A stretch of DNA of 64,000 nt, taken from assembly GCF_009857135.1 (NCBI RefSeq), contig NZ_CP047318.1:1-64000 (forward strand). Direction: 5' to 3'. Source of the stretch: Streptomyces sp. HM190. Lineage in GTDB: Bacteria > Actinomycetota > Actinomycetes > Streptomycetales > Streptomycetaceae. Of this stretch, positions 37,977 through 61,099 are shown in pieces. Every line of letters starts with the position of its first letter. Positions within the stretch are counted from its first letter, which is position 1. The notes under the pieces are model-generated. The model was not told the DNA's origin, did no database searches, and worked only from the letters and a program-made list of their open reading frames with translations. The translations under genes were made by a program, and so were the position numbers.

Positions 37977-37988
37977 CGTCGCTCTCTC

Positions 37989-42145: not shown

Positions 42146-42160
42146 CCGTCGGATGGACGG

Positions 42161-43674: not shown

Positions 43675-44037
43675 CCACGCACCGCCCCAACCGGCACGGC
43701 CGGGTTCTGCTCAACATCGTTCTCGGCCTCTTGAGCAGGTGCGGTCCTCCGCCGGGCCGCAACAGATCTGGAGCAGCGGCCGCAGGATGTGCTCGGCCGG
43801 TACGTGGCCGCGGACCGTGCCCGGCGTGAGCAGGAACGCGCCCGGCGCCCGGAGAACCGGCTCGCGAGCCTGCTCACCACCCCACCATCGAAGAAGTACT
43901 GGTCTGCGCGGCCCGAATCCTGCACAGCCGGCATCACACTGCGTCCCGGCAGCGCTGCGAGCCCATCCCGGACGCTGCACCTTGCCGGGACGGCAGCCCA
44001 CACCGCAGACCTCACTCATCATCCCTTTCCCCTTCCG
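43675..44037. other. region before UvrD-like gene, no assigned gene
   Basis: A helical stretch (LGRYVAADRARREQERARRPENRLASLL) can be read near 43796-43880 in the frame of the helicase gene. It has no credible start, and an unlikely linker intervenes. It may be a remnant of another gene. Nothing else is supported. Confidence 0.3.
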
Positions 44038-45579
44038 ATGTTTTTCTTCTCTTTCGCGGAGTTCTTGTTGCACACGCCCACCGACGAACAGGCGCACGCT
44101 GCCGACGTTTTCCGGGCCGGTCACCATCTCGTTCTGCAGGCCGGCGCCGGGACAGGGAAGACCAGCACCCTCGGCCTCCTCGCGGCCGGAACCCACCGCC
44201 GCGGCCGCTACCTCGCCTTCAACAAGAACATCGCCCAGGACGCCGCCGGCCGCTTCCCCCGCACGGTGCTGTGCAAGACCGCTCACGCCACAGCCTTCGC
44301 CGCCGTCGGTCACCGCTACACCCGCCGGCTCAACAGCCCCCGCCAGCCCGCGTGGAAGACCGGCCAGGCGCTCGGTATCACGCGTCCGGTCCGCATCGGT
44401 GCTCACGAGATCGGCCCCCGCGCGCTCTCCCACACCGTGCTGCGCACCGTCACCCGCTACTGCTACTCCGCCGACCGCGCCCTGACCGGCCACCACGTGC
44501 CACGATTGCGTGGCCTGGACACACCCGGCGACCATGCCCGACTTGCCGACGAGGTCATGCCGTTCGCGACCAAAGCCTGGGCCGATCTGCACAACCCCGA
44601 TCAGGGCGTGGTCCGTTTCGAACACGACCACTACCTCAAAATGTGGGCCCTTACCGCACCCACCATCGAAGAGGACTTCCTCTTCCTCGACGAGGCCCAG
44701 GACACCAACCCGGTCCTCGAGGAGGTCTTCGCCGCCCAACGCGACCACGCACAGCTCGTCATGGTCGGCGACTCCGCCCAGGCCATCTACGGCTGGCGCG
44801 GCGCCCGGGACGTGATGACCGGATTCGACGCCACCCCTCTCACCCTGACCCGCTCCTTCCGCTTCGGCCCCCTGATCGCCGAAGAGGCCAACCGGTGGCT
44901 CACCCTCGCCGACGCCCCCATCCGCCTGACCGGCAGCGACACCATCCCCACCGACATCGGCAGCCTCGACCGGCCGGACGCGGTGCTGTGCCGCACCAAC
45001 ATCGGCGCCATGGCCGAAGTCATGCGTCTGCTCGCCGTCGGCCACCGCGTCGCCCTCACCCGCGGAGGACAGCAGCTGGCCGCGCTCGCCCTCGCGGCCC
45101 GCGACCTCAAAGACGGCCGCCGCACCTCCCACCCCGAACTCGTGCTCTTCGCCTCCTGGGGCGAACTGCAGGATTACGCCGCCCACGACCCCGCAGGACG
45201 CGACCTCCAGCCCTTCGTCGACCTCGTCGACACCCACGGACCCGACGCCATCCTCACCGCCGTCGACCAGCTCACCGACGAACAGCACGCCGACGTCACC
45301 GTCTCCACCGCCCACACCGCCAAGGGCCGCGAATGGCTCACCGTCAAAATCGCCGACGACTTTCCCCCGCCCAAGGACACCGACCAGCACGACGCCCAAG
45401 GCCAGCCCATTCCCGAACCTGTCAGCGACACCGATGCCCGCCTCGCCTACGTCGCTGTCACCCGCGCCCGCCACCACCTCGACCTCGGCGGCCTCTCATG
45501 GATCAACACCCACCCCGCCCCGCACCGAGCGCCAGCTGAAGCCCGCGCAACGGCTAGCGTCATGACCTGCGCGGGTTAA
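44038..45579 (+). CDS. UvrD/Rep-like superfamily 1 helicase
   Basis: 513 residues from ATG 44038; TTG 44068 with GGAG just upstream is an alternative start. Motifs: GAGTGKTST (I, near residue 38), FLFLDEAQDTNP (II, near 217), GDSAQAIYGWRGA (III), LTRSFRFG (IV), VSTAHTAKGREW (V) and YVAVTRARHHLDL (VI). It is shorter than full UvrD (about 720) because the 1B/2B insertions are small, as in many plasmid- and defence-linked helicases. ATP-driven 3'-5' unwinding is expected. No partner gene is evident except the small RHH-like gene downstream. Confidence 0.9.
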   Translation: MFFFSFAEFLLHTPTDEQAHAADVFRAGHHLVLQAGAGTGKTSTLGLLAAGTHRRGRYLAFNKNIAQDAAGRFPRTVLCKTAHATAFAAVGHRYTRRLNSPRQPAWKTGQALGITRPVRIGAHEIGPRALSHTVLRTVTRYCYSADRALTGHHVPRLRGLDTPGDHARLADEVMPFATKAWADLHNPDQGVVRFEHDHYLKMWALTAPTIEEDFLFLDEAQDTNPVLEEVFAAQRDHAQLVMVGDSAQAIYGWRGARDVMTGFDATPLTLTRSFRFGPLIAEEANRWLTLADAPIRLTGSDTIPTDIGSLDRPDAVLCRTNIGAMAEVMRLLAVGHRVALTRGGQQLAALALAARDLKDGRRTSHPELVLFASWGELQDYAAHDPAGRDLQPFVDLVDTHGPDAILTAVDQLTDEQHADVTVSTAHTAKGREWLTVKIADDFPPPKDTDQHDAQGQPIPEPVSDTDARLAYVAVTRARHHLDLGGLSWINTHPAPHRAPAEARATASVMTCAG

Positions 45580-46048: not shown

Positions 46049-46137
46049 AGCATCCCCACGTAAGTAGGGGTCTATCCACGGCCGCGCCACTGGCGGCGTC
46101 ACCACCTCGTTGTTCCCCACGCGGGTGGGGGTCCGCC
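46049..46137 (+). CRISPR. two-repeat mini CRISPR array beside tniB
   Basis: Two repeat-like units, 46049-46076 and 46110-46137, are exactly 61 bp apart, the same 28+33 period as the main arrays. The first is divergent (CCCCACGTAAGTAGGGG) and the second is near consensus (CCCCACGCGGGTGGGGG). One 33-nt spacer lies between at 46077-46109. The upstream sequence (CTCGCAGGTCAGCAAGG) may be a short leader. It lies 272 bases from the end of tniB, on the far side of the gene train from the main arrays. Confidence 0.75.
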
Positions 46138-46408: not shown

Positions 46409-47278
46409 TCAGTCGGTGTGACGTTGGGTGGGGTCGAGGCGACTGAGGACGGCGCGCACGAGGTCCCGGCTGTAGGGAGGGAGTGGTGCGGCCGCGCCGT
46501 GTGGAGTGGGCGGGTTCGTCGGCCCCGTGCTACCGGCTCCCTTCGAGCCGGGGCCGCCGTGCTGTTCCCGGAGCAGGTAGGTGATTTTGGCCCACTGGCG
46601 GAAGTTGCCGTGGCAGGCGACGTCGTCGATCCACAGCAGTTCGTCGGTGGGTGCGTCCGCCCACAGCGGGTGGTATTCGGGGATGACGGTGAGGACTTCG
46701 GCTGGGGTGAGGGGCTTGTAGCGCTGCCAGACGAGGATGCGGGAGTCCAGAGCAGGACGGTTCTTGATCTTCTGGTAGCAGGTTTCAGCGCCGACCAGGA
46801 CGACGGCGAGGCGGGTGTCCTCGTCGTCCCAGAGCTCGCGGATGAATTCGAAGGCCCGGGTGTCCAGCCACTGCGCTTCGTCGACGACCAGAACGCGCGG
46901 GGTTTCCGACAGGGCTTCCTTGAGAATGGTTTCGCAGCGGGTGCTGTTGAGGGGGGCCTCGCCGGGCAGGTCGAGCCTTTTGTACAGGGCGGCGCGCAGG
47001 GCCTGGATTTTGGCGGAGCCGACCTTGATGCGCAGGGTGGTGTGGGGGGCGAGGTCGTGGAGGTGGCTGTTGACGGCGAAGGTCTTGCCCAGGCCGACGC
47101 CGCCGTGGACGCACATGATGGCGCCCTTGCCGGCGTCGGCGTTGAGGGTGGTGACGAGGTTGGCGTAGGTCTCTGCGCTGGCCTGGGTCAGCATGGCGCG
47201 GGCGCCGGGCAGTCCCATGTAGTGGTAGTTGGGGCCGGCGGCCGACTGGTTGTCGGGCGTGGTGCTCGCGTGGGTCAC
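46409..47278 (-). CDS. tniB: TniB/TnsC-like AAA+ transposition regulator
   Basis: 289 residues from GTG 47278, which overlaps the tniA stop (GTGA). Walker A is GGVGLGKTF near residue 59, Walker B is RVLVVDEAQWL near 127, sensor-1-like VVLVGAE near 153, and a C-terminal lid with GNFRQWAKITYLL. The family (TniB, TnsC, MuB) binds DNA, selects the target and activates the DDE transposase. In CRISPR-associated transposons the same class of ATPase connects the guide complex to the transposase. Motifs look intact. Confidence 0.9.
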   Translation of the reverse strand: MTHASTTPDNQSAAGPNYHYMGLPGARAMLTQASAETYANLVTTLNADAGKGAIMCVHGGVGLGKTFAVNSHLHDLAPHTTLRIKVGSAKIQALRAALYKRLDLPGEAPLNSTRCETILKEALSETPRVLVVDEAQWLDTRAFEFIRELWDDEDTRLAVVLVGAETCYQKIKNRPALDSRILVWQRYKPLTPAEVLTVIPEYHPLWADAPTDELLWIDDVACHGNFRQWAKITYLLREQHGGPGSKGAGSTGPTNPPTPHGAAAPLPPYSRDLVRAVLSRLDPTQRHTD

Positions 47279-48861
47279 TCGGTGTCCTGGGGCTTGGGGC
47301 CGGGCCGGGGCTTGGTCCAGCGGGCGGAGTCGGGCTGGGGCCGGTTGAGGAGGTCGGGCCGGGCCTGGGCCTGCAGGTGACCTTCCGGTGTCTGCAACTG
47401 GCGTAGCTGGGCGGCTGCCTGGCTGGCGGTGAGCCGGTTGAGGGGTTCGGGCGCGGCGGCGACGCTGGTGGCGGCGTAGCGGGGTGTGGCGTTTTTGCGT
47501 GCTCGGCGGGCTTTGGCGGCGTAGCGGTCGGCTTCGCGTCGGCGGGCGTTGTGCAGTGCGCGGGCTTGGCGGGGGCTCATTTCGTCGCTGCGGAAGGCGG
47601 GGCCGCGGTAGGTGAGGGTGTCGGCGTCGTAGAGTTCGACGCGGTGGTAGTGGTGGGGTTCGTGGCGCAGGCGGACCATTTCGCCGGCGCTTGAGTGGCC
47701 GTGCATCCAGTCGCCGACGTAGTAGGCGCTTTTCCAGCGGACGCCCTTGCTGGTGATCTTCCGGGGTGGGCCGGCGTCGGTGAGGGTGTAGGTGTGCAGG
47801 TCGGCGGGGTCGAGGGTGTCGATGGGGGTGAGGTCGGCGTGCCAGGCCTGGGCGGGGGTGCGGCGGTGGAGGCGGGCGATGGTGTGGTCGTTGTTCCACC
47901 AGTCCACCCAGTCGAGGACGACGGTGACGAAGGTTTCGTAGTCGAGGAGTTCGTGAAGGGCCCATAAGGGCTGGCCGCGGCGGTCGCGGCGGCTTCGGGG
48001 GGTGTGGGCGTAGCCGGGCAGTCCTTTGAACAGCATGTGCTTGGCGGCGCCGTTGATGGCTTCGACGGTGCCTTTGAGGTGGGGGCTGTAGGGCGGCAGG
48101 ACGATCAGTTCGGTGCCGAACTTTTTGAACGCCTCGTCCACGCACTTGCCCAGGAAGTCGCGGCCGCGGTCGGTGCGGATCTTGCGGGGGATGCCGCCGA
48201 AGGGCCGGTGGTGATCCGTGCAGAGGATGGCGTCGCGGGCGGCGGCCAGGATGGCGTCCTGGCTGGGCTGGTGGGGGGTGATGGCCAGGCCGCAGATGAC
48301 GGCGGTGGTGTGGTCGATGAACCAGGTGATCCAGGGTTTGCTGCGGCGTCCGTCGATGTTGACGAAGACGCTGGCTTCGACGTGGTCGGTTTCCCAGACG
48401 TCGTTGCGGTTGCCGTGTGGGCGCAGGGCGTGTACGTCGTGTCGGCGGCGGGCTGCTTCGCCTCCTCTGAGGGCGGCACGCTGGCCGGGCGTGAGTTCCC
48501 GGTCTACGGCGCGGTAGAAGGTTGCCTGGGATACGCGGGGCGGGTTGCCAAAGATGCCGTCGGCGATGAGTTCGCGGTAGGTGGCTGCCGCGTTGCCGTT
48601 CCATCGGGCCAGGGCGTCGTGCATGGCCGGGGTGAGGGTGAAGTGGCGGCGGCCTTGGGGGGTGTAGGTGCCGTGGTGGGCGTCGGCGTTGTCCATCCAG
48701 CGGCGCACCGTGCGCCAGTGGACGTCGAACCCGGCGGCGACGGTACGGACATCGTGGTGAGCGAGGCGGTCTGCGTCGCGCAGGCGCAGCAGTCGGCGTA
48801 CGGCGGCGGCGCGCAGGGAGGTCAGGTCGTAGGGGCCGTTAGGTGGTGGTGTGGCGGGCAC
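47275..48861 (-). CDS. tniA: TniA/TnsB-like Mu-family DDE transposase
   Basis: 528 residues from GTG 48861, 47 bases after the cas6e stop. N-terminal HTH regions (VAAGFDVHWRTVRRWMD; PRVSQATFYRAVDRELT) precede a retroviral-integrase-fold core with the first Asp in VWETDHVEASVF (about residue 169), the second in IRTDRGRDFLG and the Glu in GTVEAINGAAK. A Mu-type C-terminal barrel follows (AYYVGDWMHGHSSAGEMV). The triad is complete. This enzyme class cuts and joins transposon ends. Its place directly after cas6e in the same transcription unit is the key oddity of the window. Confidence 0.9.
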   Translation of the reverse strand: MPATPPPNGPYDLTSLRAAAVRRLLRLRDADRLAHHDVRTVAAGFDVHWRTVRRWMDNADAHHGTYTPQGRRHFTLTPAMHDALARWNGNAAATYRELIADGIFGNPPRVSQATFYRAVDRELTPGQRAALRGGEAARRRHDVHALRPHGNRNDVWETDHVEASVFVNIDGRRSKPWITWFIDHTTAVICGLAITPHQPSQDAILAAARDAILCTDHHRPFGGIPRKIRTDRGRDFLGKCVDEAFKKFGTELIVLPPYSPHLKGTVEAINGAAKHMLFKGLPGYAHTPRSRRDRRGQPLWALHELLDYETFVTVVLDWVDWWNNDHTIARLHRRTPAQAWHADLTPIDTLDPADLHTYTLTDAGPPRKITSKGVRWKSAYYVGDWMHGHSSAGEMVRLRHEPHHYHRVELYDADTLTYRGPAFRSDEMSPRQARALHNARRREADRYAAKARRARKNATPRYAATSVAAAPEPLNRLTASQAAAQLRQLQTPEGHLQAQARPDLLNRPQPDSARWTKPRPGPKPQDTE

Positions 48862-48908
48862 AGGCGTTCGGGCGGCTTCCTTGGGGTGGTGGACGTCGGG
48901 GCGGTGGG

Positions 48909-49619
48909 TCAGGCGGGGGCGAGGGTGAGCAGGCCGGCGCCGTAGGGCTTGCCGCGGCCGATGCCGGTGAGCAGGGCGTGGCTGAGTTGGTCGGGGTCGG
49001 TGATGGTGGCCAGGCCGTCGAAGCGGGTCAGTGCGTGCACGGGGCCCAGGGGGTGGGCTTGTTCGCCGGGCTTGTCGACGCGGCGGCGTGTGCGGGGGAA
49101 GCGGGCGGGGGTGATGTCGGTGGTGGCCAGGGTGAGGCCGGCTTGGTGGGCGCGGCGCTGCCACCAGGCGAGGGCGTCGTCGCCGTAGAGCGCGACGATT
49201 TTTCTGCCGTGCTTGTTGTCGACGGGGTGGTGGTCGTCCAGGACGCGGCGGGCGGCGCTGGCGTTGGCGGTGATGCGGTAGCGCACCGCTCGGCCGGGGG
49301 TCAGGGCCTGGAACATGGGGTGCAGGGGTCGGGTTTCGGCGGTGCCGTAGTGGTGGGGCAGGCGGGTGAGGTCGGGCGGCTGGTGGGATTGGACGAGCAG
49401 GGTGGGTGGGGTGCCTTCGGTGGCGTCTTCCAGGCGGAAGAGCAGGCCGGCCTGCTGCCGGGGGTTTTCGCCGAGGTCGTCGGGGGCCAGGAGCATCACG
49501 CTCTTGTGCAGGCTGACGGCGTCGGCCAGGTCACGGCGGGCGGCCGGGCTGCGGCGGTTGAGGCGGATCCGGGTCAGTGTCGCTGTGGTGGCGAGGGCGG
49601 CGGTTGGGGTGCTGGTCAC
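48909..49619 (-). CDS. cas6e: Cas6e (CasE) crRNA-processing endoribonuclease
   Basis: 236 residues from GTG 49619, overlapping cas5 by four bases. TLTRIRLNRRS, then LHKSVMLLAPD with the active-site His of Cas6e, and the C-terminal glycine-rich GIGRGKPYGAGLLTLAP that binds the repeat hairpin. It cuts the array transcript below the repeat stem. Intact, which means the degenerate arrays here could still be processed wherever their stems survive. Confidence 0.93.
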   Translation of the reverse strand: MTSTPTAALATTATLTRIRLNRRSPAARRDLADAVSLHKSVMLLAPDDLGENPRQQAGLLFRLEDATEGTPPTLLVQSHQPPDLTRLPHHYGTAETRPLHPMFQALTPGRAVRYRITANASAARRVLDDHHPVDNKHGRKIVALYGDDALAWWQRRAHQAGLTLATTDITPARFPRTRRRVDKPGEQAHPLGPVHALTRFDGLATITDPDQLSHALLTGIGRGKPYGAGLLTLAPA

Positions 49620-50407
49620 GGGGTGGCGTCCTGGTGGATGTAGGCGGTCAGTTCGGTGAGTGCGGGCGGTGGGGCGTACAGGGTGGCGGGCAGGTCTTCG
49701 GTGGTGTGCCAGGTGCGGCGGGTCTTGTGGAAGCGGCGTGTGGGGGTGAAGTCGTGGGGGACGTCGGCGACTTCGCGTTCGCTGTGTGCGGCAGGTACGT
49801 GGGAGGGCGGGTGTTCCCAGACGAAGGCGACGGGCACGGTGGCCTGGTCTGCGCGGGGTGGTGTGGTGAGGCTGAGGGGGACGTGGTGGAGGAGTTCACC
49901 GATGGGGTCGGGGTGCGGGCCGCCGAGGACGAGTGGTTCGTTGGGGAGGCAGGCGCGCCTGCCGAGGTAGGGGCCGAAGGCGGGTTGTTCGAGCCGCTTC
50001 AGGAGGTGTTCCAGGAACGGGTCGGGTCCTTGGACGGCGAGGGTGAAGACGGCGTCGGCGAGGTAGACCCGTTCGGTGATGAGGGTGGACTTCTCGCGGG
50101 GGCGGTAGGCGCCGCTGCTGGTGCGCAGGCCCTGGCGGTGCGGGCGGCCGCCGCCGACGGTGTGGTAGTCGGTGTGCCGGGTGCCGGGGCGGTCGATGCG
50201 GACGGTGAACGTCAGGTCGGTGTAGGGGTTTTGGCCGGTGGCCGGGTCGGGGGCGAGGGCTTCGCTGCGGGGGCGTCCGTCGGCGGCGGCGAACAGGCCG
50301 ATGAGGGCCGAGCGGGAGGGGAAGGGGAGGGTGTCGCGGTAGTGGAAGGCGGCGTGTTCTCCGAACGACATCAGCGGTGCGGCCAGGCGCAGCAGGATGC
50401 CGTTCAT
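49616..50407 (-). CDS. cas5: Cas5e (CasD) Cascade subunit
   Basis: 263 residues. ILLRLAAPLMSFG at the N-terminus, FPSRSALIGLFAAA (the Cas5 P-S-x-S-x-I/L-G/L-G motif region), YHTVGGG and the GPYLGRRACLPNEPLVL block are family landmarks. It caps the 5' handle of the crRNA in the Cascade complex. Overlaps cas7 and cas6e by four bases each. Confidence 0.93.
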   Translation of the reverse strand: MNGILLRLAAPLMSFGEHAAFHYRDTLPFPSRSALIGLFAAADGRPRSEALAPDPATGQNPYTDLTFTVRIDRPGTRHTDYHTVGGGRPHRQGLRTSSGAYRPREKSTLITERVYLADAVFTLAVQGPDPFLEHLLKRLEQPAFGPYLGRRACLPNEPLVLGGPHPDPIGELLHHVPLSLTTPPRADQATVPVAFVWEHPPSHVPAAHSEREVADVPHDFTPTRRFHKTRRTWHTTEDLPATLYAPPPALTELTAYIHQDATP

Positions 50408-51594
50408 ACGAGGGGCCCGGTGGGGAGGGCCGCGTTTTTGGTGAGGGCGTCGATGAGGTCGTCGAGGCCGGCGTGGGCGGTGCCGAGGTGGTAGACGGGG
50501 CCGGGGTGCAGGGTGGCGTAGCCGCAGCCGACGAGGCGGCGGGTGCCCAGCATCCGGTTCAGCCCGGCGGCGTGTTCGGACAGGGCGGTGATGGCGGGAG
50601 CGGTGTAGCCGCCGCCGGGGGCGTGCTTGACGGGCTGTTCGAAAGCGGCGGCGTAGGAGACGGGGCGGCGGTCACGGATCGTGTAGTGGACCAGGTGGGG
50701 GTAGGTGTGCGGGGCGGTGGAGGTCTTCTTCGCGCCGGGCATGACGTCGATGAAGGCGTCGGCGAACAGGCCCAGCAGGTGCAGGGCTTGGTCGTGGTCG
50801 CCGTTCAGGTTGCGGGTCAGTTCGGTGAGGTTGACCGTGGCGTAGCGGTAGAGCAGGCCGGTGGTGAAGAACGCGGTCTGCAGGTGGGCGCTGCCGGCCT
50901 CGTTCGGGGCTGCCCAGTCCTCGACGGCGGTGAAATAGTCGGGCTGGGGTGAGCTGGGGTGGACGGTGAAGGCGGGTGCCATCTGCACGGCGCCGTCGAC
51001 GTGGGCGTCGGGCACCTCGGCGAGCATGCGGCCGAAGAGGTTGATGGTCGCGGTGCGCCGGCGTATCACGGAAGCAACCCTGGGCGTGGGCAGGACGGCC
51101 TCGGCCTTGGGCTTCTTGCGGGTGCCTTTGGCCGGGGCGGTCTGTGCGGCGGTTTCCTTGGCGAGGGCTTCTTCGAGTTGTGGGCGGTGTTCGGTGCACA
51201 GGTCGGTGAGGTCATCGAGGACGTCGCGCGGCAGGTAGAGGGTGGCCGAGGTGATGCCGCGCTGGTTTTCCTCGGTCTTGAGGCCTTCCGTGGTGGCTGA
51301 GCGCACGACCTGGGTTCCGGCGAAGGCGGCCAGGTCGGTGGGCCAGCCGGCCGCGCGCAGGGCGTCGGCCACCCGTAGGGGCAGCATGCGGGTGCGGGCG
51401 GCGTGTTCGTCCAGGACGTCCTCCAGGCGCAGGCGCACGGCCCGCTTCCAGGACTGTGAGGACACCAGGGCTCGGACCGCGCCGCCGAGGTTCAGGGTTT
51501 TGGGCAGGTCGTCCTCTCCTCGGTTGAGGAGGGAGGCGGGCAGCGGGTGCAGGATGTGGAAGTCGGCGTAGCGGGCGGGGGCGTAGGCGGTCAT
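50404..51594 (-). CDS. cas7: Cas7e (CasC/Cse4) Cascade backbone subunit
   Basis: 396 residues. DFHILHPLPASLLNRGEDDLPKT is cut here to its start FHILHPLPASLLNRGEDD, followed by KTLNLGGAVRALVSSQSWKR and, near the end, VGCGYATLHPGPVYHLG; together these identify the type I-E backbone. Six copies coat the guide RNA. It includes a basic Lys-rich insertion (KGTRKKPKAE) near residue 160. Two bases separate it from cse2 and it overlaps cas5. Confidence 0.94.
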   Translation of the reverse strand: MTAYAPARYADFHILHPLPASLLNRGEDDLPKTLNLGGAVRALVSSQSWKRAVRLRLEDVLDEHAARTRMLPLRVADALRAAGWPTDLAAFAGTQVVRSATTEGLKTEENQRGITSATLYLPRDVLDDLTDLCTEHRPQLEEALAKETAAQTAPAKGTRKKPKAEAVLPTPRVASVIRRRTATINLFGRMLAEVPDAHVDGAVQMAPAFTVHPSSPQPDYFTAVEDWAAPNEAGSAHLQTAFFTTGLLYRYATVNLTELTRNLNGDHDQALHLLGLFADAFIDVMPGAKKTSTAPHTYPHLVHYTIRDRRPVSYAAAFEQPVKHAPGGGYTAPAITALSEHAAGLNRMLGTRRLVGCGYATLHPGPVYHLGTAHAGLDDLIDALTKNAALPTGPLV

Positions 51595-51595
51595 G

Positions 51596-52261
51596 TCACT
51601 GTTCCTTGGACGTCAGGGTGTGCAGGGTGAGGAAGTAGTTCTCGCGCCAGCGGGCCGCTATCTCGAGTTGGTCGTCGTCCCACCAGGCCAGGTCTTCCAG
51701 CAGGACGGCGAAGTCGAGGCGGGCGGCGCCGCGGCTGTTCAGGTGGCCGGTCAGCGTCCATAGCCGCGGGTGCAGCAGCGAGGTGTCGAGCCGGGTGAGG
51801 GTTTTGACGCGGTTGGTCATGGTGGCTTCTTTGAAGCCGTAGCGGGCCACGGCGATGGCGAGGTGGGTGCCGAGATCGGGACGGCGGCGCCAGGGCCGCT
51901 CAGCCGTGCTCGCCGCCGGTGCCGAACCCGACGGGTCGGATGCCGGAGCTGTGTTCGCGGCCGGTGTGGTGGTGGCGTCCTGGTCCTTGCCGGGGGCGGC
52001 CTGCTCCGGCTGGTAGGGGCCTTCTTGGTGGGGCAGGTCGCGGTGCAGGGCGATGAGTGAGGCCACGGTGTAGTGGGCGCGGCGTGCTCCGAAGCCGGCG
52101 ATGTGCCGGGTGAGGTGCTCGGGCATCCGGGAGCACTCTGCGACGGGCCGTCCGAAGCCCGAGTTGAGGTCGGCGCGGATGCCGTTGACCGCGCACAGGG
52201 TGATGACCTGGTGGACGAAGTCGTCGTAGTGGGCGCGGCGTTGCGCGGTGGTGACGGGCAT
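51596..52261 (-). CDS. cse2: Cse2 (CasB) Cascade small subunit
   Basis: 221 residues from ATG 52261. Opens with RAHYDDFVHQVITLCAVN, has a non-conserved Ala/Ser/Pro-rich insertion near residues 85-125, and closes with LTGHLNSRGAARLDFAVLL and WRENYFLTL, the helical Cse2 pattern. It contacts the displaced strand in the complex. A 63-base gap separates it from cse1. Confidence 0.9.
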   Translation of the reverse strand: MPVTTAQRRAHYDDFVHQVITLCAVNGIRADLNSGFGRPVAECSRMPEHLTRHIAGFGARRAHYTVASLIALHRDLPHQEGPYQPEQAAPGKDQDATTTPAANTAPASDPSGSAPAASTAERPWRRRPDLGTHLAIAVARYGFKEATMTNRVKTLTRLDTSLLHPRLWTLTGHLNSRGAARLDFAVLLEDLAWWDDDQLEIAARWRENYFLTLHTLTSKEQ

Positions 52262-52324
52262 AGGGGCGGCAGCCTCCGATAAGGCGGCAAGAAAGAGTGG
52301 GCAGAGGGATGTGGTGAGGGAGGA

Positions 52325-53920
52325 TCAGCGGCTGCGCAGGCGCAGCTGGGCCAGGGCGGTGGCGACGGCTTCGGCGGCGCGGAAGTGCTGGGCGATCGCC
52401 GGGCGGGTGGCGGTGCGCAGGGCCTCGATGGCGTCCGCGGCGAACGCCGCGCGGGCGCTGAGGGCGGGGTTGTCCAGCAGGTTCCAGAAGGTGGCCTCGG
52501 CACGGGGCCAGTACAGGGTGCGGGCGCTGCGGGTCCAGGGCGGCAGGTGCCGGGGGCTGCCGGAGTTGGTGGTCTGCTTCCAGGCGTCCTGGGAGAGGCG
52601 GTCGAGGTGGGCGCCGATCTCTTCGGCGGCCTTGCGGCATGCGGCGACCCGCTCGGCCGCGGCCGGGTCGCATTCCTGCATCCAGGGCCAGATCGGCGGG
52701 GTCAGGGCCGTGTACCAGGTGCGGTTGGTGGTCTTGCCGTCCTGGTCGAATCCGTAGACCCGCACCCGCAGGACGGCGCGCAGGTCAGGAGGCAGGTCGT
52801 TGAGGGTCGTGAAGGCGTCGGGGCGCTGGACGGTGTAGCGGCCCTTGCCGCTCTTTGCCTGAGTGCCTTTGCGGTCGTCCTCGTCGCCCGCCAGCAGCAG
52901 GGCATCCAGGTCGCGCCACAGGGCCCGGTCGGCGTCCGCGCGGCGTGGTCGGTGGCGCCGGGTGACCGGTTCGTCCGCATGGACGTGATGGATGAGGTAC
53001 GGGTCGAGGGCCGGGAGTTTCTTCTGGGTAGACCAGGTCAGGTAGGCGTCGGTCACCTGGCGTCCGTCCGGCGCCGGGATGAGAAGGACGGCGTGACGCG
53101 AGCGGCCGGTCAGCAGACGGCCCGGTGAGGACACCGACGGCGGCGCGGCATCGGGGTCCGGGCCCTCGACGGGGTCACCGTCGTCGTCAGGGTCGGGGTC
53201 GGGCAGCGGTTCCTCCCACGGGCAGTGGTCCACTGCGTCCGGCCAGGACGGGTCGGGCTTGGGGATGCCGGCCAGAAGGGTCTCGTACAGGGTCCGGCCC
53301 AGGGGGTGGAAGGACAGACTCGAGCGCAGTGGGCCGGCTTTCGCCCGGTTGAGGGAGCGGCCCCCAACGGTGCGCACGGACCACTGGCCGGCCGCGCCGT
53401 AGTAGTGGTGGATGAGCATGTGCCACAGCGCCTGGGCGCTGGGCACCGGCTGCGGGTCGCTGTCGGAGTGCGGGCTGAGCCAGGAAAGGTTGTTGCCCTC
53501 GGGACGGCCGAAGACCAGCTTGTTGACGCCGGCACGTTGCGGGCACTGGCTGGCCAGTCTCGGGTCTTGCAGGAACGGCCGCGCCCGGTGGAACAGGTCC
53601 CAGATGTAGTTGTCGAAGTAGGCATGAACGGCGTCGGGGTCGAACCCGGCGGGATGCGCCAGTAACTCCCTTCGGCGGGCAGCCCACTGACGTACCGTCA
53701 TGCGCCGCTGTCCTCGTGCGTCCAGGCCGCTGACCCGTGCGGCCATCACCACGAGCAGGCGCAAGACGGCAGATGCCGCCGGCGGCACGGGAAGTGCCAG
53801 GTCCTTGATGAGGTGGGCGCGCAGCAGCACGTCCCGCCACCCCAACTCCTCCTGGCGTCCGTCCGGGAAGAGGACGGGAATGCACGGTTCTTTGTCGGTC
53901 TCAAAATGCGGGGAAGACAC
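52325..53920 (-). CDS. cse1: Cse1 (CasA/Cas8e) PAM-recognition subunit
   Basis: 531 residues from GTG 53920; the frame is open to 54001 but the extra N-terminus is atypical. CIPVLFPDGRQEELGWRDVLLRAH and PFLQDPRLAS with VNKLVFGRPEGNN and WHMLIHHYYGAAGQ are Cse1 landmarks. It recognises the PAM and recruits Cas3. An Asp-rich loop (PDPDPDDDGDP) near residue 245 is unusual. A 626-base gap with one of the two iteron modules separates it from cas3. Confidence 0.93.
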   Translation of the reverse strand: MSSPHFETDKEPCIPVLFPDGRQEELGWRDVLLRAHLIKDLALPVPPAASAVLRLLVVMAARVSGLDARGQRRMTVRQWAARRRELLAHPAGFDPDAVHAYFDNYIWDLFHRARPFLQDPRLASQCPQRAGVNKLVFGRPEGNNLSWLSPHSDSDPQPVPSAQALWHMLIHHYYGAAGQWSVRTVGGRSLNRAKAGPLRSSLSFHPLGRTLYETLLAGIPKPDPSWPDAVDHCPWEEPLPDPDPDDDGDPVEGPDPDAAPPSVSSPGRLLTGRSRHAVLLIPAPDGRQVTDAYLTWSTQKKLPALDPYLIHHVHADEPVTRRHRPRRADADRALWRDLDALLLAGDEDDRKGTQAKSGKGRYTVQRPDAFTTLNDLPPDLRAVLRVRVYGFDQDGKTTNRTWYTALTPPIWPWMQECDPAAAERVAACRKAAEEIGAHLDRLSQDAWKQTTNSGSPRHLPPWTRSARTLYWPRAEATFWNLLDNPALSARAAFAADAIEALRTATRPAIAQHFRAAEAVATALAQLRLRSR

Positions 53921-54546
53921 ACAGGATCCATTGCCGGGTGCGAACAAGAGATGTATTTCGGGGAGACTCGCGCGCCGGAGCGGTAATTCTGCGCAGGCCA
54001 AGGCACAAGGAGCGCACCAGGGCGGCAGGAAAGGAGGGGGCAGACGGGGCGGGCGCGGGCCGGGTCAGGCCACGCCGACGTGCCGCCCCTGCACCACGGG
54101 GGCACCAAGGGTGCGGTGCACACGGCGCAGCAGGCAGGGCGCGCGAGACCGGACTCGAACGTCAGCCCGGCTCCGCGTTTTCCATATTAGCTATAGACGA
54201 GCAGCTTCCGAACCACATAGTCCAGCCGACAATTACCGGTCGGTGTCCCTTTTTTGAAGGTGAGACATTTCTGTATCGCCCTCCTCGATCCGTGCCGACG
54301 GGCGCGACGGCTGTCACTTCTCATTTCGATGTCACTGCCGGTTCTCGCTCAGATGTCAGGTCCTGTCTGGTCCCAGCCGCGGCAGGGGGCATCGGATGAG
54401 AAGTCCTGGCGGCCTGAGATGAGAATTCGCGGTCTTCTGTCTTCTGGCACCGCGCAGCTGCGTGCCCCGGGCAGGAAGGTCCGGCCTTCCTGCAACAGCG
54501 ATGCCTATGAGGGGGTTCGGGCAGGCGGCGTGGGGCGGGAAGCGGC
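53921..54546. other. cas3-cse1 intergenic region
   Basis: About 626 bases. Besides the iteron module it has an AT-rich patch at 54178-54198 (TATAGCTAATATGG on the minus strand) that could be the promoter of the cse1-to-tniB train. There is also a small hairpin with a T-run (54224-54256, plus orientation). No gene recognised. Such a large gap means that the downstream genes may be transcribed separately from cas3. Confidence 0.5.
54312..54432. repeat. four-site inverted module (left copy)
   Basis: Two direct sites, TTCTCATTTCGATGTCA (54318-54334) and TTCTCGCTCAGATGTCA (54342-54358), are followed by two inverted ones whose GAGAA cores end at 54402 and 54425. Measured from 54316 the cores start at offsets 2, 26, 86 and 109. 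The copy at 61.3 kb, read on the other strand, has 2, 23, 88 and 111. The 24 outermost bases match its partner at about 20 positions. It lies in the cas3-cse1 gap. Likely binding sites of TniA or another recombinase, possibly a mini element. Confidence 0.7.
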
Positions 54547-57408
54547 TCAGTCTTCGGTGTGGACCAGTCCCAGGGCGCCGTCGAGGTGCAGACGGTGCCG
54601 GCCAAAGCGCACCGGCCGGGAGGGATCGCCGGCGTCCTGCAGGAGCAGGACGAGGTCGGCGAGGAGGGCGTGACTGCGCCAGGACTCGGGGATGTGGTGG
54701 TCTCTTGTGCGGCCGGCGACCCAGGCGGCGGGGACGGGCAGGGTGTGCTGGAGGATCGTGCGGATCTGAGCGGTGGTCGGTTTGCGGTGCTCGGGCAGCG
54801 CCCGGGTGCCGGCCGCGTCCAGAGTGAGGCGGCCGCCGGACACGCGATAGACGGGCAGGAGGCGGCGGGGCATGGCGCCCAGGCGGGTGGCGGCCTCGCG
54901 GGGGTGCAGGTTCTGGCGGTGCAGATCGGACAGCGAGAGGGTGTCGTGCCAGGCCGGGACCAGGTGCAGCAGGCTGTGGTGTTCCTCGGTGCGGGTGCGG
55001 GCCTGGTGCAGGGTGTGGCTGCGGCGCAGGGCGGCATCGGTGCGGGCCAGGGTGTCGGCGTCTCCGTGTACGGCTTCCACGAGCTGCTGCACATCCTCGG
55101 GCAGGGTGAGCGGCTGCTCGGGCCGTCGGGCGAGATAGGCGGCGGTGGCGAGCGGCAGGAATGGGGAGTCCAGGGGGCGCCAGGCGGGCGGGAGGAGGGT
55201 GCGGCCGCGATGGTCGGTGGGCTCCAGGACGATCAGGCGGGGGCGACCGCCGCACAGCCAGTCGGGCCGCTTGATGTGGTCGAAGCGCCACAGGCGGCCC
55301 AGGCGTTGCAGGAGGGTGTGCAGGGGCGCCAGGTCGCTGACCATGACGTCGACGTCGATGTTGAGGCTCATATCCAGCAGGCTGGTGGTGACGACTACCA
55401 GCCGCCCGGGGCGCTCGCCGGCTGAGGTCAGGGCGGTGCGGATACGGCGGGTGAGGGCCTCGCGTTGGTAGCCGGGCAGGCGGGCGTGCAGCAGGAGCAG
55501 CTGGCCGTCAGGGCCGCCGTGCGGCCAGTCGAGGGCGGTACGCAGATGCGTGTAGGTGGTCTGGGCGTCGGCCATGGTGGCGCAGTACACCGCCGCGCAG
55601 CCGCCCGAGCGGGCGACGGGGGCGATCTCCTGAGTGATCCGCTCCAGGCGGCTCTCCCGGGCGGGTGTGTTTTCGGGGTCGGTGCAGGACGGGTGGCGCA
55701 CCGGGTGGAGACGGAGGTCGGCGCGGCGGCGGTGGCGGTCGGCGTGGGCTTTGGCCGCGGCCGGGTCGATGCGGGTGAGGGAGGCGTCCGAGGCGGCGGC
55801 GTAGAGCCAGCCCGGGTAGGGGGGCCGGCAGTCCAGGTGGGCTGTTTCGGGGTGCGGGTGGTCGGCGCCGTCGAGATAGCTGCTGACGAGTTGGCTGCTG
55901 ATGTGGCCGGGCAGGGTCGCGGACAGCAGCACCACGGGGCAGCCCAGGGCGCCGAGCCAGTGCAGCAGCCGGGACAGGGTCTGCCGCATGTACGGGGGCA
56001 GGGCGTGGACTTCGTCGATGATGACGGTCCGCCCGGACAGGGCCAGCATGCGCAGGGCGCTGAAGCGGACCGGCATGGCGGCCATGAGGGCTTGGTCGTG
56101 GGTGGCGACAGTGAACTGGGCCAGCAGGGCCCTGTCCCAGCCGCGCAGCCAGCCGTCGGGCACCGTGACGCGTTCTTCGGGCCGCTCCCCCGCAGCCGAC
56201 TTGCTCTCCTCATCGTCGCCGTCGCTGTTGTCGGGCCAGTAGGCGTCGCTGGTGGAGGGGTCGTGGGCGGCCAGGCGGTGGTCGGTATAGGAGGTGTTGT
56301 CGTAGCTGTGGCTGTGGACCAGGGAGACCGGGGCGTGCTCGGGATGGTGGGCCGAGACGTAGGCCTCGAGGAGGTCGTAGGCGGCATCGGTGGTGGCCAT
56401 GGTCGGCAGCAGCCACAGGATGCCGGCCGTGTCCCCGGAGGCGTTGAAGATCCGTGCTGCTTCCAGCGCGGTGACGCTCTTTCCGCCGCCGGTGGCGTCG
56501 GTGACCACCAGGATGCCAGGTCCCTTGTCCCCCACCGCGGCAGTGAGTTGCCCGATCACGGAGGCCTGCAGGGCGTTCGGCCGCTCCAGACCGCCGTGGG
56601 CCTGGGTGAACGGCACCTGCGGCAGAGTGATGCGGGCCAGCCCGGACTCCTCTACCACGGCGGGGGCGTCCCGGACGGCCTGGGCGAAGTGCTCGCCGGC
56701 GCCGAAGGCGGGCGCCTGGGCCTTGGGCAGCCAGTAGTGGCGCTGGCTGGCCAGCCGGTCCGCGATGATGCCGATTCCGGTGATCAGCACGGCCGCCGGC
56801 ACCGACACGTCCGCGGGCACCGCGGTGGCGCCGGTCAGATGGCGCAGCAGGGCGAAGTAGCGGCGGCGCAGATCCTGCCATGCCGGCCCGCCCATGGCGA
56901 GGTTGACCCGGGAGGCTTTGGCTGCGCCGTCGATGTCGACCTGCAGGAACCGGCCGTGGTGGCCGCCCAGGATCTGGGCGACGAGCACTCCGGGGCTGTC
57001 GGAGGTGTCCGCTGGGTAGCCGGCCTCGGCCAGCAGGTGCAGCGCGCTGTGCATGGACGCCCGTTCGTGCGGCATACGCTGCCAGTCACGGATGTCCGCG
57101 CGCAGGGTGTCGCTGACCCGGGCCCAGGGATACGCCTCCTGTTCCTGGAACGCCGACAACTTGCCCAGATCGTGCAGGCCGGCGATGAACATCACCTGGC
57201 AGCGCGCCTGAGCCAGAGTGAGCCCCAGTCCGGCGGCGATCAGTCGGCGCTGACCGCGGGTCAGGTACCGGTCCCAGACCACGCCAGCGAGCGCCGCGAC
57301 ATCCAGCAGATGAAACAGCAGCGGATACACCGCCCACACGCCGCGGTCGAACTTGCCCCACGGCGTCAGATCGATCCCGCCGCGCCAGGCATCCTCCCGC
57401 ACCCCCAC
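54547..57408 (-). CDS. cas3: Cas3 HD nuclease-helicase (type I-E)
   Basis: 953 residues from GTG 57408 with GGGAG upstream. The HD nuclease is intact: LFHLLDVAAL (H..D), AGLHDLGKLSAFQ (HD) and LGGHHGRF. The helicase has DATGGGKSVTALE (motif I, near residue 303), VIIDEVHALPPYM (motif II) and LLSATLPG (III), with a YCATMADAQTTY second domain and a C-terminal domain of ordinary length. Cas3 shreds target DNA opened by Cascade. Its presence and intact motifs are unlike described CRISPR-associated transposons, which have usually lost Cas3. cas1 and cas2 do not follow. Confidence 0.95.
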   Translation of the reverse strand: MGVREDAWRGGIDLTPWGKFDRGVWAVYPLLFHLLDVAALAGVVWDRYLTRGQRRLIAAGLGLTLAQARCQVMFIAGLHDLGKLSAFQEQEAYPWARVSDTLRADIRDWQRMPHERASMHSALHLLAEAGYPADTSDSPGVLVAQILGGHHGRFLQVDIDGAAKASRVNLAMGGPAWQDLRRRYFALLRHLTGATAVPADVSVPAAVLITGIGIIADRLASQRHYWLPKAQAPAFGAGEHFAQAVRDAPAVVEESGLARITLPQVPFTQAHGGLERPNALQASVIGQLTAAVGDKGPGILVVTDATGGGKSVTALEAARIFNASGDTAGILWLLPTMATTDAAYDLLEAYVSAHHPEHAPVSLVHSHSYDNTSYTDHRLAAHDPSTSDAYWPDNSDGDDEESKSAAGERPEERVTVPDGWLRGWDRALLAQFTVATHDQALMAAMPVRFSALRMLALSGRTVIIDEVHALPPYMRQTLSRLLHWLGALGCPVVLLSATLPGHISSQLVSSYLDGADHPHPETAHLDCRPPYPGWLYAAASDASLTRIDPAAAKAHADRHRRRADLRLHPVRHPSCTDPENTPARESRLERITQEIAPVARSGGCAAVYCATMADAQTTYTHLRTALDWPHGGPDGQLLLLHARLPGYQREALTRRIRTALTSAGERPGRLVVVTTSLLDMSLNIDVDVMVSDLAPLHTLLQRLGRLWRFDHIKRPDWLCGGRPRLIVLEPTDHRGRTLLPPAWRPLDSPFLPLATAAYLARRPEQPLTLPEDVQQLVEAVHGDADTLARTDAALRRSHTLHQARTRTEEHHSLLHLVPAWHDTLSLSDLHRQNLHPREAATRLGAMPRRLLPVYRVSGGRLTLDAAGTRALPEHRKPTTAQIRTILQHTLPVPAAWVAGRTRDHHIPESWRSHALLADLVLLLQDAGDPSRPVRFGRHRLHLDGALGLVHTED

Positions 57409-57595: not shown

Positions 57596-58790
57596 CTGTT
57601 TCCCCACGCGCGCGGGGGTCCGTCGAGCGTGTTGACGCTGCCGAAGGTGCACTCGGCGTCCCTACACGTGTGGGGGTCTGCCTGGCTGATGGATATGGTC
57701 TCGGTGGTTCCAGGAACACTCCCCACATGCCGTGGGGGTCCGCCAGGCGCCTACCTCTCCGCCCTGAAGATCCATCTGTTCTCCCCACACACGTGGGGGT
57801 CTGCCCAGCACGCGGGGAAAGACTGGATACCAGCGGGGTGCCCTCCCCACGCGCGTGGGGGTCTGCCTCCCGTCGTCGAACAAATATTCCTGGGCCAACG
57901 GTCGCTTCCCCACGCCCGTGGAGGTCTGTCGACTCTGGCCGTCAACACCTGCCGACGCGGGCTGCTATCCCCACGCGCATGGGGGTCGATCGTAGTTGTC
58001 CGTCAGCCAGTCGATAACGGCGGCTTTTTCCCCTCACCCGTGGGGGTCTGTCGTTCACTCGCGGTCCGGGCCACACGGTTCTGCGGTCTTCCCCACGCGC
58101 GTGGGGGTCAGCCGTACAGCAGGGCGGCGAGCTGAGCGATGCGCGGCCTTCCCCTCCGTGTGTGGGGGTCTGTCCACGAAAGCCCAGGCCAGCAGCACGC
58201 CCTTCAGGTTCTCCCCACGCCCGTGGGGGTCGGTCCACCTTGCCCCAGCACTCCGGACACGCAAGCTCGTCTTCCCCACACACGTGAGGGTCTGTCGCGC
58301 ATGCGGATGTCCGCCAGGATGAGTTTGCCGTCCTCCCCACACGCATGGGGGTCGGTCCACGGTGCGCGCGGTCGCGGTCGACTACAAGACGCCTTCCCCA
58401 CACGCGTGGGGGTCCTTCCGGCACCCTCAGGTCCCCTTGCTGGCGGGCGTCGATGTCCCTAGCCCGTGGGGGTCAGTCCACCTTGCCCCGGTCGGCAACG
58501 ATCGTCTCGGGCTGCTCCCCACACGTGTGAGGGTTGCTCATCCGGGACACCGGACGCATCCTCTCCTCGCTCACATGTGTGAGGGTCTGTCAGGCGTGAT
58601 CGGTTACCAGCGGCAGCCGACCGAGCACTCCCCACGCGCGTGGGGCTCTCGCCACGCTCGGGGGGCGAGCAACCGCTCTGCCGGGTGCTCCTGACGTACG
58701 TCGCCTCCCACAAGCGTGGGGTCAGTCGGCGAGTAGCACCGGGACATGCGGAGTGCAGCAGGCTTCCCCACAGGCCTGGGCGTCTTTCGA
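57596..58790 (+). CRISPR. CRISPR array 1, about 20 highly diverged repeats
   Basis: Roughly 20 units at about 61-bp spacing (range 52-77). The conserved part is TCCCC...GGGGGTC with a variable centre: ACGCGCG, ACACGTG, ACATGCCG, ACACACG, ACGCCCG, ACACGCAT and others. Most changes are C-to-T or G-to-A at CpG positions. The outer stem is preserved in most copies but fails in the last four, and spacing becomes irregular near 58570 and 58700. The array starts about 190 bases upstream of cas3. Such variety within one array means no recent spacer acquisition. Confidence 0.92.
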
Positions 58791-58814: not shown

Positions 58815-59549
58815 TCACTCTGAGCTGGTCAGAAGGGTGAGGACGGCTTGGATGAGGCTGGTGATCCGGGTGGTTGAGCACCGCAGTTTGCGGAGGAGGC
58901 GCCAGGACTTGAGGGCGGCGACGGCTTGCTCGACGAGGACCCGGATCTTTGCGTGGGACCGGTTGACCGCCTGCTGGCCTGCGGAGAGGGTGTCCCATCG
59001 TCCCCAGCACGGGGTGCGGACGGTGCCGCCGGCGCCTCGGTATCCCTTGTCGGCCCAGCACGGGATGTCTGCCTCGGCGAGGGCGTCGACGATGCCGTGT
59101 TCGCGAGCCGCGCGGATGTCGTGGACGGCGCCGGGCAGGGCCGGTGAGGCCCACAGCAGCCGACCGAAGGGGTCGGCGATCACCTGCACGTTCATCCCGT
59201 GCTTCTTGTGTTTGCCGTAGTAGAACGGCCGGTCCGCGGCGATGCGGTCGATGGGCAGGAGCGTGCCGTCCAGGATCAGGTACGCCTTCGCCGAAGCGGT
59301 ACGCACCGCGTCGGTCAGGCCGGGGGCGAGAGCGGCCAGGAGCTCGACCGCTTCGGTGACGTAGCGGTAGGCCGTCGTGGTGCCGATGCCGAACCCGGCT
59401 CCGAGCTGGGCATAGGTGTGGCCCATCCGCAGGTGGGCGAGGGTGAGCAGGGCCTGGCGGCCGGCGCTCAGGCGCCGCCACCGGGAGCCGATCGCGCGGC
59501 GGTGGCGCCGCAGCTGCTGCATGAGGAAGCGAAGGGCGGAGCTGGACAC
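58815..59549 (-). CDS. IS5-family DDE_Tnp_4-type transposase
   Basis: 244 residues from GTG 59549, missing part of the usual N-terminus. The first Asp is in LILDGTLLP, the second in CWADKGYRG, and the Glu in VLVEQAVAALKSW. Lies between array 1 and the leader of array 2. I could not find convincing inverted ends; the element may be truncated at its 5' side, where the array 2 leader begins soon after. Confidence 0.85.
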   Translation of the reverse strand: MSSSALRFLMQQLRRHRRAIGSRWRRLSAGRQALLTLAHLRMGHTYAQLGAGFGIGTTTAYRYVTEAVELLAALAPGLTDAVRTASAKAYLILDGTLLPIDRIAADRPFYYGKHKKHGMNVQVIADPFGRLLWASPALPGAVHDIRAAREHGIVDALAEADIPCWADKGYRGAGGTVRTPCWGRWDTLSAGQQAVNRSHAKIRVLVEQAVAALKSWRLLRKLRCSTTRITSLIQAVLTLLTSSE

Positions 59550-59654
59550 GTCGGGCGCTGTCTGGCGAACACGCCCCCCCGCCCGGAGTCTTGCCCCGTC
59601 CTTTGCGAACCCGCCTCAGGAGCTGGGGGGCCAGCCGCTCAAGGAAGGTCCGCA

Positions 59655-59753
59655 AACTCCCTGGCCTATAACCCGTCGTTCCCCCAGCATGGTCAGCTCG
59701 GTAAAGTCAGTAAAGTACGACCTGCCGATCTTCAAACGCGCAGCTCGTTGAGG
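59655..59753 (+). promoter_or_regulatory. leader of CRISPR array 2
   Basis: A lower-GC stretch directly upstream of the best-conserved repeats, with GTAAAGTCAGTAAAGTA at 59700-59716 containing two GTAAAGT units. Leaders of type I-E arrays drive transcription and mark the acquisition end. Its position next to identical repeats supports reading direction left to right. Confidence 0.6.
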
Positions 59754-60205
59754 GTCCTCCCCACGCACATGGGGGTCTGTCCCGTCTGCGGATCGCTCGG
59801 ATCCAAGTCGCGGCGTCCTCCCCACGCACATGGGGGTCTGTCCTCCGCCATGCTCTTCGCGTCCCGGCCGTGACAGTCCTCCCCACGCACATGGGGGTCT
59901 GTCATCCATGCGCATGCCGGCGTCTGGCAGGGCATGGTCCTCCCCACGCATGTGGGGGTCTCTCCTCGCTGACGAGCATCTTCGGGATGGCGGCCGGTAT
60001 TCCCCACGTCCGTGGGGGTCTATCCGCATGCAGGCCCAAGTCCTGGCACACAAGCAGGTCTTCCCCACGCCAGTGGGGTCTGCCCTTGTGCCGGTCGGCC
60101 ATGTAGCCGAGGGTTCCGTTTTCCTTACGCCCGAGGAGGTCTGTCTCCGCCCTAGATCCCCGGCCTCACGAACGGGCCGTTCCCCCACGCACGTGGGGGT
60201 CTATC
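59754..60205 (+). CRISPR. CRISPR array 2, 8 repeats and 7 spacers
   Basis: 28-bp repeats at 59754, 59815, 59876, 59937, 59998, ~60059, ~60119 and 60178, with 33-bp spacers. The first three are identical (core CCCCACGCACATGGGGG followed by TCTGTC). The fourth onward differ, and the seventh is strongly altered (CCTTACGCCCGAGGAGG). Conservation falls with distance from the leader, as expected for normal growth followed by decay. The array is cut by an IS after its last spacer. Confidence 0.95.
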
Positions 60206-60232
60206 CCCGGTCTGGGGCGGCTGCCACGACAC

Positions 60233-61080
60233 CGTTTCTAATGGCGTGATCACTCGTTGAGCCGTGCATGACTGATCTGGTGGAGCGGTTGGTGCCGGAC
60301 GAGTTGTGGACGCTGTTCCGGCGGGTGGTCCCGTCGACGGAGGTCATACGCCCGCAAGGCGGCGGGAGACGGCGGGCGAGTGACCGTGAATGTCTGGCAG
60401 CGATCATCTTCGTGGCCACCTCGGGCTGCACGTGGCGGCAGCTTCCGCCGGTGTTCGGGCCGGCCTGGCCCACCGTCTACCGGCGCTTCGCCCAGTGGAG
60501 TCGGGACCGTGTCTGGGCTCGGCTCCACCGCGTCATCCTCGACGAGCTCGGCGCACGGGGTGAGTTGGACTGGTCGCGGTGCGCCATCGACTCGGTCAGC
60601 CTGCGGGCCGCAAAAGGGGGCCGTTGACCGGACCGAATCCGACCGACCGCGGCAAGCCGGGATCGAAAATCCACCTGATCACCGACCGGAACGGACTGCC
60701 GATCTCTCTGGGGATCTCGGGCGCCAACATGCACGACAGCCTCGGCCTTGAACCGCTCGTGCGCGGGATCCCACCCATCCGGTCCCGCCGCGGCCCACGG
60801 CGACGAAGGCCGGCGAAGCTGCATGCGGACAAGGGCTACGACTACGACCACCTGCGCCGATGGCTCCGCAAACGCGGCATCCGCCACCGCATCGCACGCA
60901 AGGGCATCGAGTCCTCAAAGCGGCTCGGCCGACACCGCTGGGTCGTCGAGAGAACCGTGTCCTGGCTCGCCGGCTGCCGTCGTCTCCACCGACGCTACGA
61001 GCGCAAGGCCGAACACTTCCTCGCCTTCGTCGGCATAGCCGCAGCCCTCATCTGTCACCGTCGCCTCACCAAATGAAACG
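60233..61080 (+). mobile_element. IS5-family insertion in CRISPR array 2
   Basis: Short imperfect inverted ends: CGTTTC near 60233 and GAAACG ending 61080. It contains one two-frame transposase. Repeat-like units resume at 61100, so the element sits within the array. Exact borders and target duplication are uncertain. Confidence 0.75.
60268..61076 (+). CDS. IS5-family transposase, two frames with -1 frameshift
   Basis: Frame one (60268-60627), MTDLVERLVPDELWTLF, includes the insertion-element HTH region and the first Asp in RCAIDSVSLRA. Frame two (to 61076) has KIHLITDRNGLP, the second Asp in LHADKGYDYD and the Glu in WVVERTVSWLAGCRRL. The frames join at the AAAAGGGGG run near 60611-60619, a typical -1 slippage site. 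The triad is intact. Confidence 0.85.
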
Positions 61081-61099
61081 ACGTCCACGTCCAAGCGCC

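Follow-up and report, generated by a model that had tools for sequence, protein, structure and literature searches.

The window analysed here, a stretch of 64,000 nt spanning positions 1 to 64,000 of contig NZ_CP047318.1 from Streptomyces sp. HM190, carries the interference genes of a type I-E clustered regularly interspaced short palindromic repeats (CRISPR) system and a transposase pair, joined in a single gene train (G000 denotes the genome of the window, W1 its arrays, other G numbers relatives' genomes and L numbers loci). The order on the minus strand is cas3 (54547–57408, with an alternative ATG start at 57549), cse1 (cas8e; 52325–54001, PF09481), cse2 (51596–52261, PF09485), cas7e (50404–51594, PF09344), cas5e (49616–50407, PF09704), cas6e (48909–49619, PF08798), tniA (47275–48861) and tniB (46409–47278), all eight genes being present by their open reading frames (ORFs) and by Pfam matches to Cas3, Cse1, Cse2, Cas7, Cas5, Cas6e, a DDE/Mu-C transposase and an AAA ATPase. 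Four-base overlaps join cas7 to cas5 (50404–50407), cas5 to cas6e (49616–49619) and tniA to tniB (47275–47278), and cas6e lies 47 bases from the GTG start of tniA at 48861. No cas1 or cas2 adjoins the locus, and queries with these two genes gave no match in the 30 relatives' loci scanned. ORF coordinates and Pfam thus bear out the original prediction for this DNA, which had described an eight-gene minus-strand train with these overlaps and this gap, and without cas1 and cas2.

TniA, a TnsB-class DDE transposase by its Pfam match and aligned catalytic residues, has D158, D230 and E266 as its DDE residues, kept in all seven aligned rows; its nearest solved structure is TnsB 7svw (E = 1.9e-10), a protein of a type V-K CRISPR-associated transposon (CAST). 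TniB is a TnsC-class AAA ATPase (Pfam AAA_22) for which no solved relative was found by sequence. Cas3 aligns along its whole length with the solved Cas3 of T. fusca (E = 5e-113) and retains the HD, HH and DEVH motifs. Its frame is open, and the earlier description of Cas3 as intact holds; the kept motifs would fit an active HD nuclease domain.

The CRISPR arrays lie on the plus strand. Array 1 (57597–58788), divergent from cas3, has degenerate repeats; array 2 (59754–60205) opens with three identical repeats and degenerates later. A leader precedes array 2 (59690–59753) and, by eye, is similar to the stretches that precede fresh repeats in L070, L073, L105 and L171. Two insertion sequences, at 58815–59655 and 60228–61085, split the window arrays, the second matching IS5-family transposases annotated on many plasmids. 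Behind tniB, also on the plus strand, is a delocalised mini-array (46049–46137), common to the window, L070 and L074, in which two atypical repeats flank a single 33-nt spacer. Over four array sets, 34 of 48 spacers are 33 nt long, spacers outside 26–45 nt being omitted from the count. In G063, G064 and G134, fresh repeats carrying 33-nt spacers lie close to the leader, and the fresh block of L070 also holds one 22-nt spacer. The close arrays L082 and L096 differ by block gains or losses, a comparison that does not distinguish acquisition from deletion.

Beyond the arrays, at 61229–61393, is a transposon end: five motifs, mostly 23 bp apart, lie within the last 165 bp before an outer terminus, 5'-TGCGACTTCTC, at 61393, and the homology of the window to both G061 and G063 breaks off at this terminus. 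The same end is bordered by other flanks in G062 and G064 and was also found, among 392 genus genomes searched, in the window, G134 (two copies), G187, G349, G420 and G425; 10 of the 18 places returned by that search were inspected, seven being the end block and three (L153, L154 and L155) not, and the rest comprise seven places with the exact letters of L155 and one, at 54312, that is a motif cluster of the window. This cluster (54311–54428, between cse1 and cas3) holds end-like 23–24-bp motifs in both orientations, occurs also in L072 and not in L070, L073 or L076, and could represent an operator or the remnant of an end. A two-ended transposon was rejected, no second copy of the end being found on the tniB side, left of tniB; a left boundary near 40.94 kb, common to L070 and L074, was likewise rejected as the element end, as it carries no end motif.

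The other boundary is indicated by G134. There, the two end copies face inward, one lying 120,806 bp from one tip of a 10,266,650-bp contig and the other 120,807 bp from the opposite tip; they are embedded in 3,022-bp stretches that are exact inverted copies of each other, and the cas–tniAB train sits inside the left end copy. Such symmetry suggests that the element lies in terminal inverted repeats and that its second boundary is the telomere, and the window element is likely telomeric too. Between the transposon end and the contig start, the window carries a pair of telomere replication genes on the minus strand (37419–40280), namely tpg, for the telomere-protecting terminal protein (37419–37976; NCBIfam NF047541, E = 1.5e-85, above cut-off), and tap, for the telomere-associated protein (37989–40280; NCBIfam NF047542, 1118 bits). 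The original prediction had reported neither the arrays and mini-array nor the transposon end and tap–tpg, and had not recognised a single transposon end or a likely telomeric element. On the plus strand of the same region are a small helix-turn-helix (HTH) gene of XRE type (42158–42424), identified from its ORF translation with HTH models below cut-off, and a neighbouring module with a UvrD-like helicase (43789–45579; Pfam UvrD-helicase), which is common to sister loci and has 77–78% DNA identity with L075 and L137.

A first search of relatives found the same gene order, at about 50% identity, in two of 60 other genomes (G034 and G028). With a cas-linked TniA as the query, which biases the cas-linked share upward, cas genes were found directly before tniA in 21 of 26 named loci, all six cas queries matching in 16 of these; three loci have no cas genes in the DNA compared (L091, L092 and L095), and two that start at or inside tniA are uninformative (L071 and L093). 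The full train is also present on two plasmid records, one linear and one circular. The layout recurs in many genomes and is thus far beyond chance. In a tree of 34 TniA rows, built without L071, L089, L091 and L093, a branch with 100/100 support separates the 23 cas-linked rows from the others, and TniA distances track those of Cas7 (r = 0.95) and Cse1 (r = 0.93) across 19 loci. The tniA, tniB and cas genes are under purifying selection: the ratio of nonsynonymous to synonymous substitution rates (dN/dS) is 0.17–0.37 for tniA and 0.20–0.32 for tniB (six relatives each) and 0.25–0.34 for cas3 (three relatives). L070 was dropped from the cas3 estimate, its cas3, like those of L090 and L094, having been extracted from a wrong start (49 aa in L070); the frames of all three are open. 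Over at least 945 aa, the cas3 frame is open in 16 of the 19 relatives' loci examined, and that of L098 is short because its stretch ends. The cas6e–tniA junction is thus conserved in the 21 relatives and tniA is inherited together with the cas genes, and the possibility that the original prediction had itself raised, of a chance neighbour betrayed by tniA phylogeny or by absence beside other copies of the cas locus, was not borne out.

Recombination has nonetheless occurred inside the train: L070 and the window are about 95% identical over cas6e–tniA–tniB and about 80% from cse1 to cas5. Breakpoints fall between cas5 and cas6e in L070 and between cas6e and tniA in L073, setting a conserved tniA–tniB off from more diverged cas genes. 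There are also TniA–TniB relatives without CRISPR (L055–L058, L097 and L099), some arranged as tniB–tniA–tniB trios, and among the matches listed 24 of 40 places with TniA–TniB relatives lie within 10 kb of the end of a plasmid record.

The guides of six hosts (the window, G061, G063, G064, G065 and G134), 82 array spacers in all, were compared with related loci at up to seven mismatches. Ten of the 82 match tniA, tniB, tap/tpg, helicase or HTH genes of related loci. Reversed and shuffled spacers gave 0 of 82 matches each at the same threshold, and neither 189 kb of cas DNA nor 62 kb of chromosomal DNA was matched by the spacers themselves. When up to nine mismatches are allowed, seven spacers, drawn from five of 16 array regions, match the site of the tniA catalytic motif, and five spacers from four of these 16 match the tniB Walker A site, with differing repeats in both cases; shuffled queries at the tniA and tniB sites gave 0 and 0.05 hits each. 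The protospacer-adjacent motif (PAM) directly upstream of the target is AA for six of eight distinct spacers, one of which also has a second target with AG, and AG and CA for the other two. This count leaves out W1_s14/L143 and W1_s1/L145 (at least eight mismatches), W1_x2/L145 (register unclear) and W1_s13/L086, W1_s7/L088 and L105_s15/L096, whose matches fall in other arrays rather than in targets. A review (PMC12231136) gives AAN as the type I-E PAM of S. avermitilis.

Individual matches link the elements to one another. The window's own tap is matched at 38236 by a G134 spacer with three mismatches, the PAM being AAG. The mini-array spacer of L070 differs by one mismatch from the HTH gene of L072, L075 and L083, and that of the window by four from a sister HTH gene (match sites of the mini-array spacers, L072:20105, L075:17015, L083:18820 and L071:6468). 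The window's own HTH copy is diverged, and the window's mini-array spacer has no other match in its own genome at up to three mismatches with every sixth base free. The idea that the mini-array directs the element to an attachment site, as in known CASTs, was therefore rejected, its targets being HTH genes of sister loci. Against plasmid records, one window spacer has a 97% match to an ATP-binding gene 7.4 kb from the plasmid end, part of a set of TnsA-like, Mu-transposase and ATP-binding genes; window spacers also match genes annotated as Mu transposase at 86%, and other genes. Many of these matches lie within 4–9 kb of the record end, and the six records examined are all linear. In L141, at the end of NZ_CP130719.1, TnsA-like, Mu-C transposase, ATP-binding and helicase-associated genes lie less than 15 kb from the end of a linear plasmid, and the ATP-binding gene there has one mismatch to a window spacer. 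Phage targets were rejected: a search that would overlook diverged protospacers gave one weak match (83% over 47 bases, E = 0.1), inside an insertion sequence and in no spacer.

The locus is a new example of a class already named, CAST I-E5, and not a new kind of system. The original prediction had allowed that type I-E loci beside transposition genes might have been noted by others, and they are indeed in print. The 2025 classification (PMC12669027) describes I-E5 as lacking TniQ, having an active Cas3 and belonging to telomeric transposons, calls it a CAST with a possible dual function and credits it to Hsieh et al., Science 2025 (eadp1973). Like the class so described, the window locus has a type I-E effector, linked TnsB/TnsC-class genes without TniQ or TnsD, a Cas3 with its HD motif kept and a likely telomeric transposon context; no feature distinguishing it from I-E5 was found, and the window's own telomere is not seen in the sequence. 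A literature search on telomeric transposons or I-E5 gave no other paper on the system among the matches listed, one preprint merely citing the Science paper. The absence of TniQ, another point of the original prediction, was upheld by a profile search of the whole of G000; because PF06527 matched none of its controls, this absence relies on a model that does match in 11 of 22 genomes or records.

With moderate confidence, we read the locus as a type I-E interference module joined to a transposase pair in a likely telomeric transposon, whose guides would aim Cascade–Cas3 at related elements. TniA–TniB would move the segment reaching from the end at 61229–61393 to the telomere, the putative second boundary given the symmetry in G134. 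CRISPR RNAs (crRNAs) would be loaded into Cascade, Cas3 would cut matched targets in rival elements, and new spacers would be supplied by Cas1–Cas2 in trans. This reading draws throughout on sequence comparison, and several observations weigh against it. Of the spacers compared, 72 of 82 have no match in the telomeric-element genes, and some of the matches share descent (W1_s4 with L070_s9, and three mini-array spacers), so that the independent matches number fewer than ten. The repeats of array 1 are degenerate, and many of its guides may be dead; cas3 is broken in L076 and partial in L077. Neither a recognisable telomere nor a shared terminal repeat was found at the tips of the window contig, and because these tips are not telomere-like, the telomeric position in this genome is one that we infer. 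Finally, interference alone leaves the tight coupling of cas6e, tniA and tniB unexplained.

A rival reading is a true CAST, which we consider possible but unlikely: Cascade would recruit TniB without TniQ and insert the element beside guide-matched sites in rivals or linear plasmids, replacing their telomeric part, with cutting by Cas3 as a second role. The conserved operon, the confinement of cas-linked TniA to one side of a single supported branch, the lack of TniQ in the host genome and the naming of I-E5 as a CAST (PMC12669027) all fit such a system. So do three end copies that lie inside telomeric-element genes, in tniA of G061 and G062 and in tap of G064; in G062, the N-terminal part of this tniA product shares 65% identity with a telomeric TniA. 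However, no protospacer was found within 1 kb outside the end in the window, G061, G064 or G062 (58 pooled spacers, best 10–12 mismatches per flank; five further window spacers, scanned separately from the pool, matched none of the flanks compared) or, for the 20 spacers of G134 itself, within 1.5 kb beyond its end (closest match 12 mismatches), a test that is weak if the protospacer lay on the lost telomeric side and for which the array of G062 is not known and that of G064 is partial. Nor do the 1.5-kb outer flanks of G134, G187, G349, G420 and G425 contain tniA, tniB, tap, tpg or the helicase. At the five ends compared with spacers (the window, G061, G062, G064 and G134), guided insertion appears to be without support. 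The original prediction had offered either a guide-directed transposon or an interference system using the transposase for another purpose; the linkage, the missing TniQ and the intact Cas3 on which it built have stood, and the guided insertion in its first option has not found support.

It is improbable that TniA–TniB replace Cas1–Cas2 in spacer acquisition. Faure et al. 2019, as related in PMC12231136 and PMC8730458, described Streptomycetaceae type I-E loci in which tnsB and tnsC replace cas1 and cas2, and proposed TnsBC as an adaptation module, partly since transposon ends were undetected (PMC8730458). The model for type I-E Cas1 (cas1_ECOLI, TIGR03638; ~1e-103 where present) indeed has no match in 18 of 19 other host genomes, an absence that relies on TIGR03638 because PF01867 matched G000 weakly; among them is G063, which lacks a match yet has a leader followed by near-identical repeats. 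Purifying selection on tniAB fits the proposal as well, as does the 22-nt spacer of L070, by which odd lengths are not restricted to decayed parts of arrays. Against it, a transposon end does exist, most of the genomes searched for cas1 are draft assemblies and cas1 may be gained and lost with plasmids, and the leader of L070 resembles, by eye, the canonical type I-E leader of the window genome.

The spacers themselves also speak against such a role. Spacers of 33 nt, fresh ones proximal to the leader and an AA PAM are marks of ordinary type I-E Cas1–Cas2. Because fresh 33-nt spacers stand beside a leader here, targets have an AA PAM and cas1 is not in the locus, we infer that spacers are gained by Cas1–Cas2 acting in trans. 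G000 has a second type I-E system about 40 kb away, at C1:97000–111000 (L024), with all eight genes from cas3 to cas2 by Pfam, cas1 at C1:101368–102165, a repeat different from that of the window locus and a regular 61-bp array of at least 54 repeats. Use of host adaptation in trans has been reported for type IV-A plasmid CRISPR systems (PMC11656645).

It is very improbable that the cas genes are chance or passenger neighbours of an ordinary transposase and the arrays relics, as the degenerate repeats of array 1 and the insertion sequences might suggest, and we rejected this on the conserved junction and the co-inheritance of tniA with cas, with purifying selection, the one supported branch, fresh repeats beside a leader and non-random guide targets also against it.

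Among other systems, the locus resembles the I-F3, I-B2, I-D and V-K CASTs (in part after PMC11656645) in tying a guide complex to TnsB/TnsC-class proteins and in having a delocalised guide with atypical repeats and guides against mobile elements. Unlike them, it keeps Cas3 and lacks TniQ, a single transposon end was detected, protospacers were not found adjacent to insertions, and its mini-array spacer hits a sister HTH gene rather than an attachment site. Neither the TniQ/TnsD adaptor nor the loss of Cas3 that mark Tn7-type CASTs (I-F3, I-B2 and V-K) is seen in the window, and the cas1–cas2 of a canonical type I-E locus occurs in G000 only in the separate system. As in type IV-A plasmid CRISPR (PMC11656645), a mobile element's CRISPR would act against rivals, apparently with host type I-E adaptation, but the effector is another one, and the window locus has Cas3 and a transposase in its operon. 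The loci of Faure et al. 2019, as summarised in PMC12231136 and PMC8730458, have the same gene content and come from the same family, and probably form the same group; unlike there, an end was found here, and the spacer signature argues against an adaptation role. As far as the literature was compared, what is new is the set of comparative tests, of the end, of the guide targets and of the signs of adaptation in trans.

Taken further, the guide targets lead to a proposal that we hold tentatively: telomeric transposons may fight one another by means of guides kept across diverged lineages, against the tniA catalytic motif, tniB Walker A, tap and the HTH gene, with the element's own HTH gene diverged, and Cascade–Cas3, perhaps together with TniA–TniB, may decide the ownership of chromosome ends. 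Three questions meet in this one locus: how a guide complex carried by a transposon can retain Cas3 and yet spare the target that is its own, how spacers are gained without Cas1, and by what means telomeric transposons vie for the ends of chromosomes. If guides of separate elements do converge on tniA, tniB and tap, CRISPR would serve as a weapon with which these elements contest the ends of linear chromosomes.

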